From Yarrowia lipolytica (taxonomy: Eukaryota; Ascomycota; Dipodascomycetes; Dipodascales): DNA of 64,000 nucleotides. The notes under the pieces are model-generated. The model worked only from the letters and a program-made list of their open reading frames with translations. It ran no database searches and was not told the origin of the DNA. The position numbers and the translations under genes are program-made. Shown in pieces: positions 42,998-52,799 of the stretch (positions are counted from its first letter, which is position 1; every line of letters starts with the position of its first letter). Where the stretch lies: assembly GCF_001761485.1 (NCBI RefSeq), contig NC_090773.1, positions 2,914,001 to 2,978,000 of the forward strand, in the 5' to 3' direction.

Positions 42998-43534
42998 CGA
43001 GCCAGCAGGAGCAAACAAGAAAGAACAAGAAAGCAATTGATTGGCTGTATGTTGTGAATCGGTGTTTTACCATTGGTCTGCTTGCTTTTCTCTACCGCTT
43101 GAGAGGTACCTTGGAGGAAATAGTTACTGGATAATGTACTTCAAGAAGAGACCCCCCAACAATATACAGCATATAATAAAAGAGTATTAACATCGTATGG
43201 CTGTAGATGAGATGATCAGATGAGGACTTGGTTAGAGTGACATTGAATACTTAGCTGATGCACATGTGTATAGACCAGTTGCTCCAATGTCTCTATACCA
43301 AGGCTCCTTGGCTATTCTGGAACCGAACCAATACTAACAAACGTACAAGTAAAATGACTTATAAGTCTCTATATTACTTTAGATGTTTGTTCAACTTAAC
43401 ACCAGAAGAACCGTAGGTGTAAGCTCTCGTGGCACCTGGATTAATCAAACTACTCCTGTAAAATTCCGTCAAATACACATTCACTTCAATCAATGACCAT
43501 CAGTTGACTACCGCCTAGACTTTTTCTCTCTTCC
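42998..43534. other. Intergenic region downstream of BUR1
   Basis: This is an AT-rich stretch between the convergent BUR1 gene and the 30-codon zinc-finger ORF. I see nothing else in it. Confidence 0.5.
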
Positions 43535-43627
43535 TCAGCTTTCCAAACAGTTTTTGAGATGGGCTTCGAACTGAGCGCTTGTGAAGAGCTCTCCGCAGAT
43601 TGGACATTGTAGTTGCTGTTCGTCCAT
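43535..43627 (-). CDS. Candidate 30-aa UBZ4-type zinc-finger microprotein
   Basis: The ORF has 30 codons starting MDEQQLQCPICG. Cys8, Cys11, His23 and Cys27 give C-x2-C-x11-H-x3-C, exactly the spacing of Rad18-type UBZ4 fingers, which bind ubiquitin. The finger fills the whole ORF. A TATAAA (43684-43679, minus strand) lies 52 bp before the ATG, and the intervening leader has no obvious Yarrowia 3' splice site. Codons are gene-like. It could be a free-standing microprotein or, less likely, the last exon of an undetected gene. Function is unknown; ubiquitin binding is inferred from spacing only. Confidence 0.5.
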   Translation of the reverse strand: MDEQQLQCPICGELFTSAQFEAHLKNCLES

Positions 43628-43678
43628 GATTTTGGGCTGTTCTGTAGGTGTTGTAATGATTAAATGTCCCCCAGTTCG

Positions 43679-43684
43679 TTTATA
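43679..43684 (-). promoter_or_regulatory. TATA box for the zinc-finger ORF
   Basis: TATAAA on the minus strand, 52 bp before the 30-codon ORF. Confidence 0.4.
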
Positions 43685-44653
43685 AACTGGCCAAAATATC
43701 GACAGCCTCAAATGTCACACTTGTCCACAAACTCCAGAATCGAACAACCAGCAAAAAAAAACATACAGAGTTTCTCATGAGCTGGAGAGTGTGTGCCTCT
43801 TGACTGCACGCTGGAATGGATCACTCGTTCTGTGGAGGGAATTTGGGATAATATTGGCACTATTTGAATACCGGAGCTCTCATAGTAATATCCTGATATT
43901 ATCTGCTTATACATCGAAGAAATAGCCGAGTCGTGGCCTGGCTTTCCATGTCCGTCGTGTGTCTGGCGTATGAACCCGACCCCACATTTGGGGCTGACTG
44001 ACGTAGGAAATTGGTGTTGGTGTTGTACAGTAGATGAGACAAAATTGATATTGATTTTGAATAATAGTCAAAGGTGCCAGATATTCTATCAGGTTTCCGT
44101 ACGCTCAATTGGTTTTGATTCACGTTTTGGATTCTCTCGCTTGGTTGTGCTGAGTGGAATGTAGAAGACCGATGTTTTCCTCACACATTCCTGACTGGTC
44201 CAAAAATGATCAACTCGTATCGAACTTGAGCCTGTATACATTCTCCACCATATCTCCTTGTATGTACGATACTTCTCGTATGTCAGACAGTACATAGTGT
44301 ACGTACTGTACCTTTTTTTAATTTTTATAATACTGTACCATTATACATCGTCAGCCCCAACTTCACCTCAACTAATTCCATGAAGTCCGCTGATTTTCCA
44401 ACTAAACACACAGACCATGCGCAGCAGCTCCTGAATCAGACTCACACAACTGGATCTCTCAAAACACAAGAGAGAAATAATAACTATATCATCAATAGCC
44501 CACCAAATGGACCCCTTCCATATTTTCCTTCCACCTCTGCTCCAACCCCAACACGGATACAAAACTGAATCTATCTATCACATCAGTTGACCCATACACC
44601 TTGGAGATATCACATCAGGAAATGTCGATATGGGGCATTGAATCGTACACTAA

Positions 44654-44659
44654 TATAAG
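44654..44659 (+). promoter_or_regulatory. TATA box of tiny gene 1
   Basis: TATAAG lies 58-63 bp upstream of the ATG at 44717. Confidence 0.5.
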
Positions 44660-44716
44660 TCCCTCATCATTATCTCCGTATCAGACACAAACACCATCAT
44701 TACTCTCTGGACTATT

Positions 44717-44881
44717 ATGAGTTGGGGACACGAACACGATATTTTTGTTGCCAGCTACGTGGAGCGACATCAGAACGAAGACATCCAAAAGTCCGTTTCT
44801 TACCTGTTTGTTTATTTCAAGGGTCAATTTGACTATGAGGTCATCTACGACAAGGTCTTATGGTGGAAGGGTCCCATTTAG
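44717..44881 (+). CDS. Tiny W-K-G family protein, copy 1
   Basis: The predicted protein has 54 aa, too short for common ORF cutoffs. Key residues: Trp3, the block EHDIFVASYVE (6-16), the centre LFVYFKGQFD (30-39) and the end KVLWWKGPI (46-54). It shares this order of features with copies 2 and 3 downstream on the same strand. Codon use is gene-like, no signal peptide or membrane segment is seen, and the predicted structure is mixed helical. A TATA box lies 63 bp upstream. No known family is recognised. Conservation of spacing among three divergent copies is the main evidence that it is translated. Confidence 0.65.
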   Translation: MSWGHEHDIFVASYVERHQNEDIQKSVSYLFVYFKGQFDYEVIYDKVLWWKGPI

Positions 44882-45427
44882 CGGAGCACTATCGACGTAT
44901 TGAATATGTTTTTGGCTGTATTTGCACGTAGATGAATCACTGAACCGTAGAGGTATCGGCCGTGTGTTGGACTTGCAACCTATCGCGAGATCACAATAGA
45001 ACACAATATTACAGTATGTACTAAATTTTTACATTCAACATTTATGTATACTTCTGAAAGTATTTATTAAATATATAACCAAGTTTCCACACAAGCCTCA
45101 TCCTTGCCTCGCCAGCACAGCTGTTACACTATTGTGGACATAATTTGGGGAGACAGATGGTGGGGGCATTATTTGACCTGTTATCAGTTCATTCCACGGT
45201 CTATGAGGAGAAAACATTGTCGCACATTCAGTGCAAGAGACCCGTTTTGCATCATTGTTCTAGATCATACTCGTCACATATCCTTAACGAGAGCAAACGA
45301 AACGATAGTGTATTGTACAAACATGGGGCCAAAAATTCAGTATATAATATATACTGTACGTAAATACGAGTTACGAGTGGCACAGATTCATTGTATTTCA
45401 GCTACGACTACGATACCACGCTTGGCA
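44882..45427. other. Spacer between tiny genes 1 and 2
   Basis: AT-rich. It holds the TATA element of copy 2 (45341-45353) and TACAGTATGTACT near 45012-45024. An in-frame ATG at 45323 lies upstream of that TATA box and is probably not the start. Confidence 0.5.
45341..45353 (+). promoter_or_regulatory. TATA box of tiny gene 2
   Basis: TATATAATATATA lies 75-87 bp upstream of the ATG at 45428. Confidence 0.5.
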
Positions 45428-45604
45428 ATGAAGTGGGAAAACGAACACGACGAATTTGTGGCGAGATACGTGGAACAGAATCCGGACGACCATGTCGATT
45501 TGTCTGCATTCTTTCTCTTTGGCTACTTCAAGGGTCGGTTTGACATTGACTTTATCAAGAGGAAAATCAAGATATGGAGGGGTGAGATTGATCCTTTGGA
45601 TTAA
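45428..45604 (+). CDS. Tiny W-K-G family protein, copy 2
   Basis: The predicted protein has 58 aa: Trp3, EHDEFVARYVE (6-16), LFGYFKGRFD (30-39) and KIKIWRGEI (46-54), plus a four-residue tail (DPLD). It is closest to copy 1: EHDxFVAxYVE and LFxYFKGxFD are identical apart from the marked positions. The frame is open upstream to an ATG at 45323, which would add 35 residues, but the TATA box at 45341 and the paralogue starts favour 45428. Function is unknown. Acidic N-terminal and basic C-terminal halves are visible. Confidence 0.65.
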   Translation: MKWENEHDEFVARYVEQNPDDHVDLSAFFLFGYFKGRFDIDFIKRKIKIWRGEIDPLD

Positions 45605-46355
45605 TATGCGTCTGTAATGAAAGTAATGTCAGAAACGTCTGTTACTATAGTGTGAAGTATTTCTAGATAGCTACTTGTAGGTTCTTCAGCCTCATTAACC
45701 AAACGATTCTAAGTCTTACCTTTCGTTTTTTTACGGTACAATTTGTCAAGTCTATCAAGTAGCTATCGGGGTTGGTTCAGGTTGGAAAATGGCTCTATAA
45801 GTAGCACATCGTCTGCATACAACAAGTAATGTACTCACGACTACTGTAGACAGACCAAGATTTCGAGACTGCAAAGACCCAAAGATAAACGATACTCCTG
45901 CCTTTATTACAGTGCCAGAATTCCATCAGTAGCTTTGCCGATCTCCTCACAATGACTATCGCAAATGAACATGCATCCTGCTTGTAACCACATTCCAACA
46001 TCTACACTGCTTGGATCCAGACTGTACACATAAGGACTTTGCGACCCCGCAGACCCTGAAGATGTATCTGTAGCAGCACGGTGACATATTATTGAGCTGC
46101 GTGTCCCATGGTTGTCTAAGTATGAGTCTCTCTTTGTTCGAAGAGAGCTATTAGTGGGACCTACTGCAAGCCCCATCCCCAGCCCCATATCACCCCAGAC
46201 AGCAGATGATATTATTTGCGATGCTGAATTTGGAGAGATTGAATTTGAATATACTTGGGGCCAACAGCTTTATATATAGTCGCCAAAATTCGTACCTTGT
46301 ATCCTATATCCCGTCACAAACACACTCGCTACTACCACTTTCGCAACTCGCCATC
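45605..46355. other. Spacer between tiny genes 2 and 3
   Basis: It contains the TATA element of copy 3 (46271-46278). A minus-strand 93-codon frame (45907-46188) has a true ATG but no recognised domain and is not called. Confidence 0.45.
46271..46278 (+). promoter_or_regulatory. TATA box of tiny gene 3
   Basis: TATATATA lies 78-85 bp upstream of the ATG at 46356. Confidence 0.5.
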
Positions 46356-46520
46356 ATGGACTCCTGGGGACTGAAACAAGACCAAATTGTGGTGCGCTAC
46401 ATCGAGGCCCACATGACCGAGCCGCCCGAGTCGACGGCCAGATCGCTGATGCCAGTGCTTCCCGAATTCGACTTTTCCTTCGTTCTCAAGAGAGTCAAGT
46501 ACTGGAAGGGTATTCCCTAG
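46356..46520 (+). CDS. Tiny W-K-G family protein, copy 3
   Basis: The predicted protein has 54 aa and is the most diverged copy. It keeps Trp4, the QDQIVVRYIE block (8-17), EFDFSFVLKRV (37-47) and the end YWKGIP (49-54). The FKG centre of copies 1 and 2 is replaced by LPEFDF. Codons end mainly in C or G, as in highly expressed genes here, which supports translation more strongly than for the other two copies. Its leader ends in CATCATGG. Function is unknown. Confidence 0.65.
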   Translation: MDSWGLKQDQIVVRYIEAHMTEPPESTARSLMPVLPEFDFSFVLKRVKYWKGIP

Positions 46521-47237
46521 AATCCGGTTAACCTCTCCGCGAAACCCCACATCTACATTGTGTCCCAAAGTTCCATAATTATATGCATGTCGTATTTCGT
46601 GCGTCGCTCATGTAGTCCTGCAGGTTCGATGCGGTCAGACTTCGAAGTACGATTGTACAAAACAGAAAGATTACGACTAATTGTAGAATGCAAATCAGCT
46701 TCTGGATTAGATATCTTGTACATAGAAGCGGTTTGAACCCATAGGCGATCTCCGTAGTACGGTATGAAGACTCCTTTACAGTCACTGAGTGAATATACTG
46801 GAGCATTTCGGAGTAGCCCTGTTGAAAGATCCTATACCAATTCATCGCCTGATATTTGGCAATTGTGGTGCCTTAAACTACAAGAAAACATGATATCAAT
46901 ATGTGAGATTTTTTGAGAGGTTCTTTGGATTGGTGATATATATACATGGAAGTGATACAATTGGAAATATATGGTGCTGTCGGTCTCTTTCATTTCAATT
47001 GTCTGAGCCTGATTTATAAAAGCAGCACTATTCTGAAGAGTATTGGTTTCAAGATTATTAGGAAAATGGACTAACACGGTCGTTCTGGTCTCAAAACACA
47101 ACTTTCCCTGACGTCTGGACGCTCAGGCTACATTTTATGAGTATCAGGTTGGATATAAATCTAACCATCAGTCAACTGGAGTCCTGCCAATCGCAAAAAA
47201 ATGATATATTGAAAGGAGAAGCTAAAGAATTGAAAAT
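46521..47237. other. Intergenic region before the aspartic protease 3' end
   Basis: AT-rich DNA with only the doubtful membrane frame listed separately. I see nothing else. Confidence 0.45.
46579..46845 (-). CDS. Hypothetical small membrane protein, doubtful
   Basis: An 88-codon frame with a true ATG (MNWYRIFQQGY). It contains one strong hydrophobic segment, LICILQLVVIFLFCTIVL, at about residues 50-67. Codon use is AT-rich and unlike neighbouring genes, and no homologue is recognised, so it may be a chance frame. Confidence 0.2.
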   Translation of the reverse strand: MNWYRIFQQGYSEMLQYIHSVTVKESSYRTTEIAYGFKPLLCTRYLIQKLICILQLVVIFLFCTIVLRSLTASNLQDYMSDARNTTCI

Positions 47238-50147: not shown

Positions 50148-52799
50148 TTAGTATGCTACCAGCGACCTCCTCCATTTTTCGCCCAACTTTTTCATCTGGT
50201 ATAACACTCCTGCAGCCACTCCCTTGACCCTCTCATCGATAACTCCCTCCCAGACATCTTCCAGCCATTTCTGGAGATCGACAAACTCACGAGGCCACTT
50301 TTGCACAATGTACTCGTCCGAATGAGTGTCTAGCACCACCAAAATGCAGGTGCAAGCGGACTCAATCACCTGCGGATCGTCAATGTAGACGTAGGAGCGC
50401 AGCTTTAGCAGCATGGCCAGCAGCTCTGACGTCATATCGGTCAGTTTTGGAGCACTGGGGGCAGCTGTATACAGCAAAAGAGCGAGAGTTTTGAAATAGT
50501 GCGCCTGAATGATAGACGAGAACGAGCCAGCCATGATTCCGGTACCTGCTTTCCACCATGAGTCGATCAGCGGGAAGATAAATAGATGCGCGACCTTGGA
50601 AAAGTGGTTGGTTGTTATGGTGGTGTTTGTTTGTCCCTGGCGTTGTTTCTGGAGACTAGAAGAGACTCTGAGCACTTTAGGGCCGTTCAGAGCCTCACTT
50701 TCACGGGACTCGGCGATTGTAGGGGAGAGAAGAGTCTGTTGGAGGTCAGAAGAAACGCTATTCAGTGGCTGAGCTGTCACCCCGTCCTCTGAAGCGTCTC
50801 CAGCTGGCAGAGCTGACTGGTTATTTAAATCAAGCAATCCACTTGTTCCTGTAAGTCTAGTTCCAGTGAGACTCTTGGTCCCAATATTCAAGTCGTTGAA
50901 ACGAGCTGCAACAGCTGCTGGCAACTTCTTCATCTCCATTGGTTTCACATCAACAGTGTCAGTGAATCCATTCACAAAGCGAGCTCCAAGAGACAATGAC
51001 GTCAACAACAACAGCCGATCATTAATGCTAATGTCTGCCGTATAAAACAAATCCACAATGTACGGAGCAATCTCAGGCTGAGTGCCCACCAGCACCACCA
51101 ATGCCTGGGTTCGATGTTTATGGTAGTCTGGAAAGTCGAAATTATCCTTGAACTGAACCAGGGCCTTGGCCAGATCCTTAGCGTGCACCTTGACCTCGTT
51201 TCCATACTTTCTCTTTTCGAGAATGAGCCTAGCAGCCGTTTTCAGGGCAATATCTAGCTTGTCGTACTGGTCGTCGCCGTCTGGTGCCTTGAAGTACTCC
51301 AAAAGTTGTCTGATGTACACTGGTTTGCTGACTGTCTTGTTCGAGGGGTCTTCATCGTCAGAATCCTCTCCTTCGTCATCAGAATCCTTCATGTGACTTC
51401 TGACATCAAACCCGAGCTTCTGGTACCTGCTTTGAGTGTTTGGCTTGGCACTTCTCTCACTCAACACATCTGAAAAGATGGACGGAGCCTCCGAGTCGGG
51501 AATGCTTACATCCGGATCAGCACCTTCAGCGTCAAACAGAAGCCTTAGTGAATTGTCAGCCATCTTGTCAACGGACAACCCAGACCAGTCTTCTGAAGAC
51601 TCAATGCCGAAATTCAGAGGAACAGAGCCATATTGAGCGACTTTTTCACCAATCAAGATGCCGAAATCTCGAACCCGCGATGAAGGAGAAGATAAATGAT
51701 TAGTAATGCCATCCAGAAATGCAGGAGTCGCAGTCAGCTGCTGCAAGAACGGTTTAGTCAGCAGAGACAGACTCACGAATAACACTTCTGTCTGATGACG
51801 TTGCAGGGCAACGGGCGATTTTGAAATGTTCAATTTCGACCCCCATAGACTGAAAAGACCCATGACCTGCTCCTGGAAAATCGACTGGTCACGTGATGCC
51901 GAGATTAGTAGAGACTTGACCATATTCAGGCTGTTGACGGTGCTTGTTTGTCGAAAGAGGTCAATGACTGGAATGTTCAGCTGTGTTAACAGCTCAGCCA
52001 GAGGAGCAATTTGAACATCGTCAGAAAATTCAGAAGTGAAGTAGTTCATGGAGAAACTGAGCAGTTGCTTCAATTGGAACGGTTTCGTGTAATTAGCGAC
52101 CGTGACAAGTCGTTGAATGAATGCAGAAGAGTAGATGCAGGAACAGATGAAGTTGTTGTTAGTGTGCAATTTGAGGGCTGAAATGATAATTATACCGATT
52201 AGTTCGTGCGATGCCGTGTTGTCACGTGATATAATCACACCTCCTAGCCATTTCAAATATTGTTCAATGTTCCATTCGAATTCCACCAGACCATTGAAGA
52301 GACGCGATCCAGTTAGCAGAGACGAAATCTCCCTATTGTAGGCGGAACTCGATTCTTTCTGAAACTCCACGTATCCCAGATCCATGACCGATCCCAGGAC
52401 TGTCTTCAAATTGTCCATTTTGGCCGCTGTATATTCATTGCTGTCGTTCTTCAAGAGTCGGATTGTAGCTATCAAAATGTTCAAGCCAGTGAGATTAGCA
52501 AAAAGAGGTGAAATGTGGTCTAGGTCAGGTAATGGGTTGCTCAAAAGGACGTTGAGAGCTTCTGTTTGTGTCCTCGTCCGCTCATCGGGCGATTGATGTA
52601 GATATGACTTGGTTGAAAGCTCGGCTATGAGTTGCTGTGGCGTAACCGATGGGATAGAGCTTGAGTCAAGTGTTTCATCGGTGCGATACGAGTCGATTGG
52701 CGTAATTTTGAGGTCATGTGAGTCGGTATTGCGCGTGGTTGAGATGGCTTCCATGATTTCTAGATGTTTGGCGAGATTGAGGGCTGATTTCTTATGCAT
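50148..52799 (-). CDS. TEL2: Telomere-length regulation protein Tel2 (TTT complex)
   Basis: The predicted protein has 883 aa starting at MHKKSALNL; the longer frame begins at TTG. It is an all-helical solenoid. The middle segment FLDGITNHLSSPSSRVRDFG and the C-terminal Tel2 domain (PVYIRQLLEYF, then KTAARLILEKRKYGNEV, then LLLLTSLSLGARF) match the conserved family. Tel2 works with Tti1, Tti2 and Hsp90 to stabilise PIKK kinases such as Tor, Tel1 and Mec1. An acidic DSDDEGEDSDDEDPS block precedes the C-terminal domain; in human TELO2, CK2 phosphorylates a similar acidic Ser motif that recruits R2TP. A start at the next ATG (14 residues on) is possible. Confidence 0.85.
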   Translation of the reverse strand: MHKKSALNLAKHLEIMEAISTTRNTDSHDLKITPIDSYRTDETLDSSSIPSVTPQQLIAELSTKSYLHQSPDERTRTQTEALNVLLSNPLPDLDHISPLFANLTGLNILIATIRLLKNDSNEYTAAKMDNLKTVLGSVMDLGYVEFQKESSSAYNREISSLLTGSRLFNGLVEFEWNIEQYLKWLGGVIISRDNTASHELIGIIIISALKLHTNNNFICSCIYSSAFIQRLVTVANYTKPFQLKQLLSFSMNYFTSEFSDDVQIAPLAELLTQLNIPVIDLFRQTSTVNSLNMVKSLLISASRDQSIFQEQVMGLFSLWGSKLNISKSPVALQRHQTEVLFVSLSLLTKPFLQQLTATPAFLDGITNHLSSPSSRVRDFGILIGEKVAQYGSVPLNFGIESSEDWSGLSVDKMADNSLRLLFDAEGADPDVSIPDSEAPSIFSDVLSERSAKPNTQSRYQKLGFDVRSHMKDSDDEGEDSDDEDPSNKTVSKPVYIRQLLEYFKAPDGDDQYDKLDIALKTAARLILEKRKYGNEVKVHAKDLAKALVQFKDNFDFPDYHKHRTQALVVLVGTQPEIAPYIVDLFYTADISINDRLLLLTSLSLGARFVNGFTDTVDVKPMEMKKLPAAVAARFNDLNIGTKSLTGTRLTGTSGLLDLNNQSALPAGDASEDGVTAQPLNSVSSDLQQTLLSPTIAESRESEALNGPKVLRVSSSLQKQRQGQTNTTITTNHFSKVAHLFIFPLIDSWWKAGTGIMAGSFSSIIQAHYFKTLALLLYTAAPSAPKLTDMTSELLAMLLKLRSYVYIDDPQVIESACTCILVVLDTHSDEYIVQKWPREFVDLQKWLEDVWEGVIDERVKGVAAGVLYQMKKLGEKWRRSLVAY

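Follow-up and report, generated by a model that had tools for sequence, protein, structure and literature searches.

Domains of the Myb/SANT superfamily (PF00249; Rap1, c-Myb, FLASH/YARP) are three-helix bundles of about 50 residues, with a Trp before helix 1, an acidic start to helix 1 and a further Trp toward the end of helix 3. The cited section on Myb-related domains has the acidic patch that opens helix 1 pointing away from DNA, and describes that of c-Myb repeat 3 as required for chromatin and H4-tail binding (PMC2572630); SANT domains, in the part of the source used here, have a third helix without positive charge, some of them binding histones and those of FLASH and YARP binding an NPAT helix (PMC7432317). 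The MYB domain of TERB1, as excerpted from PMC8867601, offers a precedent in which canonical DNA binding was lost and function retained, although it forms one part of a meiotic telomere protein of animals and is not free-standing. Single-repeat Myb microproteins are already known in plants: R3 MYBs such as CAPRICE and TRIPTYCHON form a paralogue family of small proteins, most of each being a single Myb repeat (passages of PMC3986520 and PMC2492867), and these proteins of <120 residues are described as competing with R2R3 MYBs for basic helix-loop-helix (bHLH) partners (passages of PMC3986520 and PMC4725938). Here we analyze three small genes, D1, D2, and D3, in a 64,000-base stretch ("the window", bases 2,914,001–2,978,000 of C4, the chromosome D contig) of Yarrowia lipolytica CLIB89/W29, an oil-storing yeast widely used in biotechnology. 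The reading toward which we lean, if only modestly, is that they belong to a Yarrowia-restricted family of Myb/SANT-like microproteins that stand alone and are mostly acidic, probably protein binders and not classical DNA-binding Mybs. What appears to be new is a family of bare Myb/SANT-like domains restricted to one fungal lineage; no published account of it was found among the matches listed, where four of its locus names are absent.

A gene family on four chromosomes

The three open reading frames (ORFs) are as follows (letters in gene names denote the chromosome; pI, isoelectric point).

44717..44881, plus strand, D1: predicted Myb/SANT-like microprotein of 54 residues, pI 5.38
45428..45604, plus strand, D2: predicted Myb/SANT-like microprotein of 58 residues; also serves as the first exon in the fused model YALI1_D29595g
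46356..46520, plus strand, D3: predicted Myb/SANT-like microprotein of 54 residues; predicted helices 6–18, 24–31, and 40–51

The first-pass annotation had reported a shared layout for these ORFs, and this is present as described; the motifs it named are found too, except that the Lys placed before the last V-x-x-W is Arg in D3 (R-V-K-Y-W-K-G), the ending of the trio being [KR]-[VI]-x-x-W-[KR]-G. Its statement that length, order, and spacing are kept is loose as regards spacing (starts 711 and 928 bases apart). D1 is 46% identical to D2 and 30% identical to D3.

Translated searches of the same genome (six contigs, 20,500,066 bases) place the trio in a family of ten members, 53–68 residues long, on four chromosomes; because these searches ran in six frames, ignored introns, and scored the top candidates alone, ten is a lower bound. 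Used as queries, D1, D2, and D3 returned six places, namely the trio and the first three of the members below.

C4:2878171-2878374, D0: 68 residues, found with the window queries
C6:119437, F2: 60 residues, found with the window queries
C6:3133874, minus strand, F3: 53 residues, found with the window queries
Beside F3 (starts 1.3 kb apart), same strand as F3, F4: 60 residues, found on reading the F3 locus
C2:837135, B1: 58 residues, found with the F4 query
C5:1408261, E1: 62 residues, found with the F4 query
C5:1408934, E2: 60 residues, found with the F4 query; the E1–E2 region spans C5:1408261-1409113

Neither further member queries nor a family consensus (typed by hand and weighted toward E1 and D3) added a member in this intron-free six-frame search, the ten matches of the consensus being exactly the ten known members. 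Same-strand arrays (D1–D2–D3, E1–E2, and F3–F4, with gaps of 484–1175 bases) hold seven of the ten; D0 sits some 80 kb upstream of D1–D3. Since D1 and D2 are each other's nearest relatives and D3 is nearest to F3 on chromosome F (57% identity), the trio is no simple triplication. The earlier proposal of a family of three tandem genes is right in seeing a family, and wrong as to its size, which is ten or more. Likewise, W-[KR]-G had been put forward as the C-terminal motif, and ends four members (D1, D2, D3, F3) without being family-wide.

The three ORFs are real and are members of a single family. A profile built from the seven non-window members ranks D1–D3 as the top three of 1266 window ORFs (E-values 5.7e-15, 1.5e-9, and 1.4e-8; next ORF 1.2), whereas among 27753 ORFs taken from 20 shufflings of the window the best reaches 0.07 with the same profile; this ranking is partly circular, in that F2, D0, and F3 came from window queries and F4 was read beside F3. 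Between subfamily profiles (D-type, F4/B1, E1, E2), all six pairings score above all 100 column shuffles. The link from D-type to E1 rests on profiles (probability 97% for that match), single-sequence matches being weak (E 0.26 for P0009 to E1, 0.076 for E1 to D3).

Searches of 5.8 billion proteins (word-based and restricted to similar lengths) matched 23 distinct proteins, of which two, P0001 and P0010, are encoded in the window. Ten carry a source name and all ten are from Yarrowia (Y. lipolytica plus isolates B02, C11, and E02), with no named non-Yarrowia protein up to E 10 in 17 rows of this search, such that the family appears, so far, to be confined to Yarrowia. D3 and E1 share 58–94% identity with relatives in other Yarrowia sequences (79% and 58% between D3 and its relatives P0009 and P0012). 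Relatives in named other Yarrowia isolates exist for D3, F3, F4, and E1, B1 and E2 have near relatives on other contigs without a source name, and D1, D2, D0, and F2 returned in these protein searches only sequences identical to their own genome, alone or inside longer models. The expectation of homologues in related Yarrowia is therefore borne out for the family and for D3, which alone among the window genes is shown to be conserved in another species, and not for D1 and D2, for which none is clearly from another species.

Substitution patterns show signs of purifying selection at the protein level, as had been suggested. By the Nei–Gojobori method (NG86), ratios of nonsynonymous to synonymous change (dN/dS) are 0.40/1.44 = 0.28 for D1–D2, 0.38/0.82 = 0.46 for D3–F3, and 0.47/1.65 = 0.28 for F4–B1, these being the three closest pairs; across the 17 pairs that share at least 30% identity the ratio is defined in 12, all below 1 (0.28–0.79), and undefined in five, with synonymous sites near saturation. 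In the same three closest pairs, changes are in excess at third positions (P 0.013, 0.056, and 0.007, respectively).

Predicted fold and relationship to Myb/SANT domains

AlphaFold2, run for two of the ten members, confidently predicts a compact bundle of three helices spanning about 50 residues for both E1 (pLDDT confidence score 87.6; helices 6–19, 25–35, and 41–53) and D3 (91.3). A Foldseek search with the E1 model ranks the DNA-bound Rap1 Myb domain first, at a weak E of 0.27; the fold matches also include 2lr8 (CASP8-associated protein 2, which we take to be FLASH) and the transposase DNA-binding domains of Tc3 (1u78), SETMAR (7s03), and TnpE (2rn7). In profile comparisons against 20 Myb domains of the same genome, the family core scores 21.8, where the highest of 200 column shuffles reaches 11.7, and the untrimmed family alignment 18.7 (reversed, 6.7); E1 as a profile scores 26.8 (probability 82%), above all 100 shuffles (null maximum 17.0), and E2 and F4/B1 narrowly top all 100 of their nulls (15.3 versus 15.0, and 13.0 versus 12.4). 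The E1 alignment spans the entire Myb domain, with Trp at positions 4, 23, and 51. The first and last core Trp are present in all ten members, the last at a longer spacing than in Myb, whereas the middle Trp is found in E1 alone and is missing from the other nine; E1 also has some six extra residues around helix 2. Helix 1 has an acidic start throughout, every member having at least one Asp/Glu no more than six residues from the first Trp and nine having at least two (D3 has one).

The relationship has its limits. The window subfamily alone scores 13.4 against Myb, a value reached by 3 of 100 shuffles, and the window genes connect to Myb solely via E1 and the predicted fold. No member passes the curated PF00249 cut-off (the best, E1, has 16.8 of 24.4 bits), for which reason we call the family Myb/SANT-like and do not file it in PF00249; no PF00249 match is listed for D1–D3, and none of the 26 PF00249 places in the genome is a family member. 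Against PDB sequences the six best matches of the family profile are all Myb proteins (best E 8e-5), and with one row more Myb holds six of the first seven places (best 7e-4), but these E-values are unreliable, because the best single domain reaches 14.6 bits and the reversed profile matches designed armadillo repeats at 1.2e-6. On balance, we regard the fold and family assignment as moderately supported. The first-pass annotation had recognized no known family; this is not borne out in that form, E1, the most Myb-like member, tying the family to the Myb/SANT fold. A CUE domain (PF02845) was considered and rejected, its match being confined to F4 (1 of 17 rows; 19.5 of 21.1 bits, E 7.7e-4, profile positions 2–21 of 42); the CUE-like stretch comprises F4 residues 27–46.

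Charge, proposed function and alternatives

The ten proteins are acidic or near neutral (pI 4.6–6.9), whereas 15 of the 20 Yarrowia Myb domains have a pI of at least 7.9. Helix 3 carries a net charge of +3 in D2, D3, and F3 and of −2 to +1 in the other seven. Conservation is likewise divided: the D3/F3 subfamily (five rows) has 9/12 invariant columns in helix 3 versus 5/13 in helix 1, with the balance reversed in D1/D2 (9/13 columns kept in helix 1 versus 3/12 in helix 3) and F4/B1 (11/13 versus 4/12). Given proteins that are acidic or near neutral and mostly without a strongly basic helix 3, we infer protein binding for most members. The entire protein would be one Myb/SANT-like (homeodomain-like) three-helix domain which, at 6–8 kDa, could diffuse freely into the nucleus and act there as a single-domain module; most members would bind protein in the way of some SANT domains, be it a histone tail of basic charge or the helix of a partner, and as bridges, or as competitors of full-length Myb/SANT proteins, they might modulate complexes of chromatin or transcription. 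Owing to their basic helix 3, D2, D3, and F3 would be the likeliest to touch DNA as well. If the family does consist of stand-alone Myb/SANT domains, its members may be miniature gene-regulation or chromatin-binding proteins, compact and tractable as candidate regulators, and would represent a regulatory domain cut to its minimum in fungi. More speculatively, and only as a tentative proposal, this yeast lineage may have turned the Myb/SANT domain into some ten free-standing microproteins with separate promoters that tune histone tails or chromatin-complex subunits by competition, an independent fungal counterpart of plant Myb microproteins.

The proteins could instead be minimal sequence-specific DNA-binding Mybs, placing helix 3 in the major groove and, without an activation domain, repressing or blocking their sites. 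The basic helix 3 of D2, D3, and F3 and its status as the best-kept part of the D3/F3 subfamily favor this, as does the DNA-bound Rap1 domain in the first Foldseek rows for E1; set against these are the acidic or near-neutral character of all ten, the helix 3 net charge of only −2 to +1 in seven, the better-kept helix 1 of D1/D2 and F4/B1, and the general weakness of DNA binding by a lone Myb repeat, and we consider the idea unlikely. We are similarly doubtful that they are microProtein-style inhibitors, each dimerizing or competing with one particular full-length Myb/SANT protein in the manner of plant R3 MYBs. A protein made of a single domain would suit such a role, and possible partners exist in the genome, where 21 Myb domain places, spread over a smaller number of genes, lie above the Pfam cut-off; yet the bHLH-binding motif of plant R3 MYBs, [DE]Lx2[RK]x3Lx6Lx3R, is absent from all ten members in a motif scan. 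The plant proteins come from another lineage and are longer (<120 residues, against 53–68). A helix-turn-helix domain taken from a DNA transposon, then domesticated and spread, would account for the transposase domains among the fold matches. This origin strikes us as very improbable: the sequence signature of the whole family fits Myb, a genome DNA search with D1 returns D1 alone, and the trio with its surroundings (window 43000-47236) contains no direct or inverted repeats of at least 18 bases.

Gene models, promoters and neighborhood

Our preferred reading, of free-standing microproteins, takes D1, D2, and D3 as separate small genes, each with its own upstream TATA-like element.

44654..44659, plus strand: TATA-like element TATAAG, preceding the D1 ATG by 63 bases
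45341..45353, plus strand: pair of TATATA elements starting at 45341 and 45348, which precede the D2 ATG by 87 and 80 bases
46271..46278, plus strand: TATATA elements that overlap, preceding the D3 ATG by 85 and 83 bases
45582..46380, plus strand: intron demanded by the fused NCBI model YALI1_D29595g, donor GTGAGA, acceptor AAG; judged spurious

TATAWR occurs 45–105 bases 5′ of the ATG in six of the ten genes, the trio included, against a window non-coding background of 0.077 (P 3.4e-5, an optimistic value, as motif and range were chosen once the sequences had been viewed and a scan for TATAWA had failed to pick up D1). Upstream in-frame ATGs would lengthen D2 to 133 and D3 to 104 residues; the TATATA elements of D2 (45341/45348) and D3 (46271/46273) fall within those lengthened frames.

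Two annotation efforts have fused neighboring members, in YALI1_D29595g (D2 and D3) and in CJU89_2299 of Yarrowia sp. B02 (relatives of F3 and F4), which raises the question of whether an intron joins D2 and D3 into a single gene with two domains. The D2 donor GTGAGA does fit five of six positions of the Yarrowia consensus, but Yarrowia introns, in the portion of PMC13309789 cited, chiefly use a GTGAGT donor, an ACTAAC branch point, and a CAG/TAG acceptor, and this 799-base intron ends in AAG with no ACTAAC-like branch point within 40 bases of the acceptor. It would also delete the first Trp of D3 and contains the D3 TATATA element; the two fused models join at different points of the domain, and D1 has no donor matching at least five of six positions. 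We accordingly reject the D2–D3 fusion as spurious and give the two-domain gene very little credence. Just as hard to credit is the view that the ORFs are untranslated and their likeness the residue of old duplicated non-coding DNA. Among the protein matches, D1, D2, D0, and F2 do lack a relative from a named non-lipolytica source; against this, every defined dN/dS ratio is below 1, third positions carry the excess described above, D3 and E1 have their relatives in other Yarrowia, and E1, annotated as YALI0E11330p, has a consensus Yarrowia intron (GTGAGT ... ACTAACACAG) terminating exactly at its ATG. Introns of the 5′ untranslated region in Y. lipolytica frequently end at the ATG, according to the same portion of PMC13309789.

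Several of these 53–68-residue genes are missing or mis-modeled among the annotated proteins returned by our searches. E2 lies in model YALI1_E14089g, which has a different C-terminus, and D0 in NCBI model YALI1_D28782g, whose altered C-terminus loses the W-Q-G end. The cited passage of the CLIB89 paper reports SnowyOwl predictions of >100 codons, with most new coding sequences lacking transcript or domain support (PMC5014426). A 100-codon limit may be the reason that family genes went unannotated, although the deposited models YALI1_D29595g (97 residues) and YALI1_D28782g (66 residues) fall below it.

The trio is flanked by a protein kinase gene (PF00069; 40877-42997, plus strand) and an aspartyl protease gene (PF00026; 47238-48605, minus strand), and in the 4.2-kb stretch between them the only ATG-initiated ORFs of at least 100 residues are the lengthened D2 and D3 frames. 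Beyond the protease, a gene at window 50148-52799 (minus strand) encodes a Telomere_reg-2 (Tel2-like) domain (PF10193, E 5e-32).
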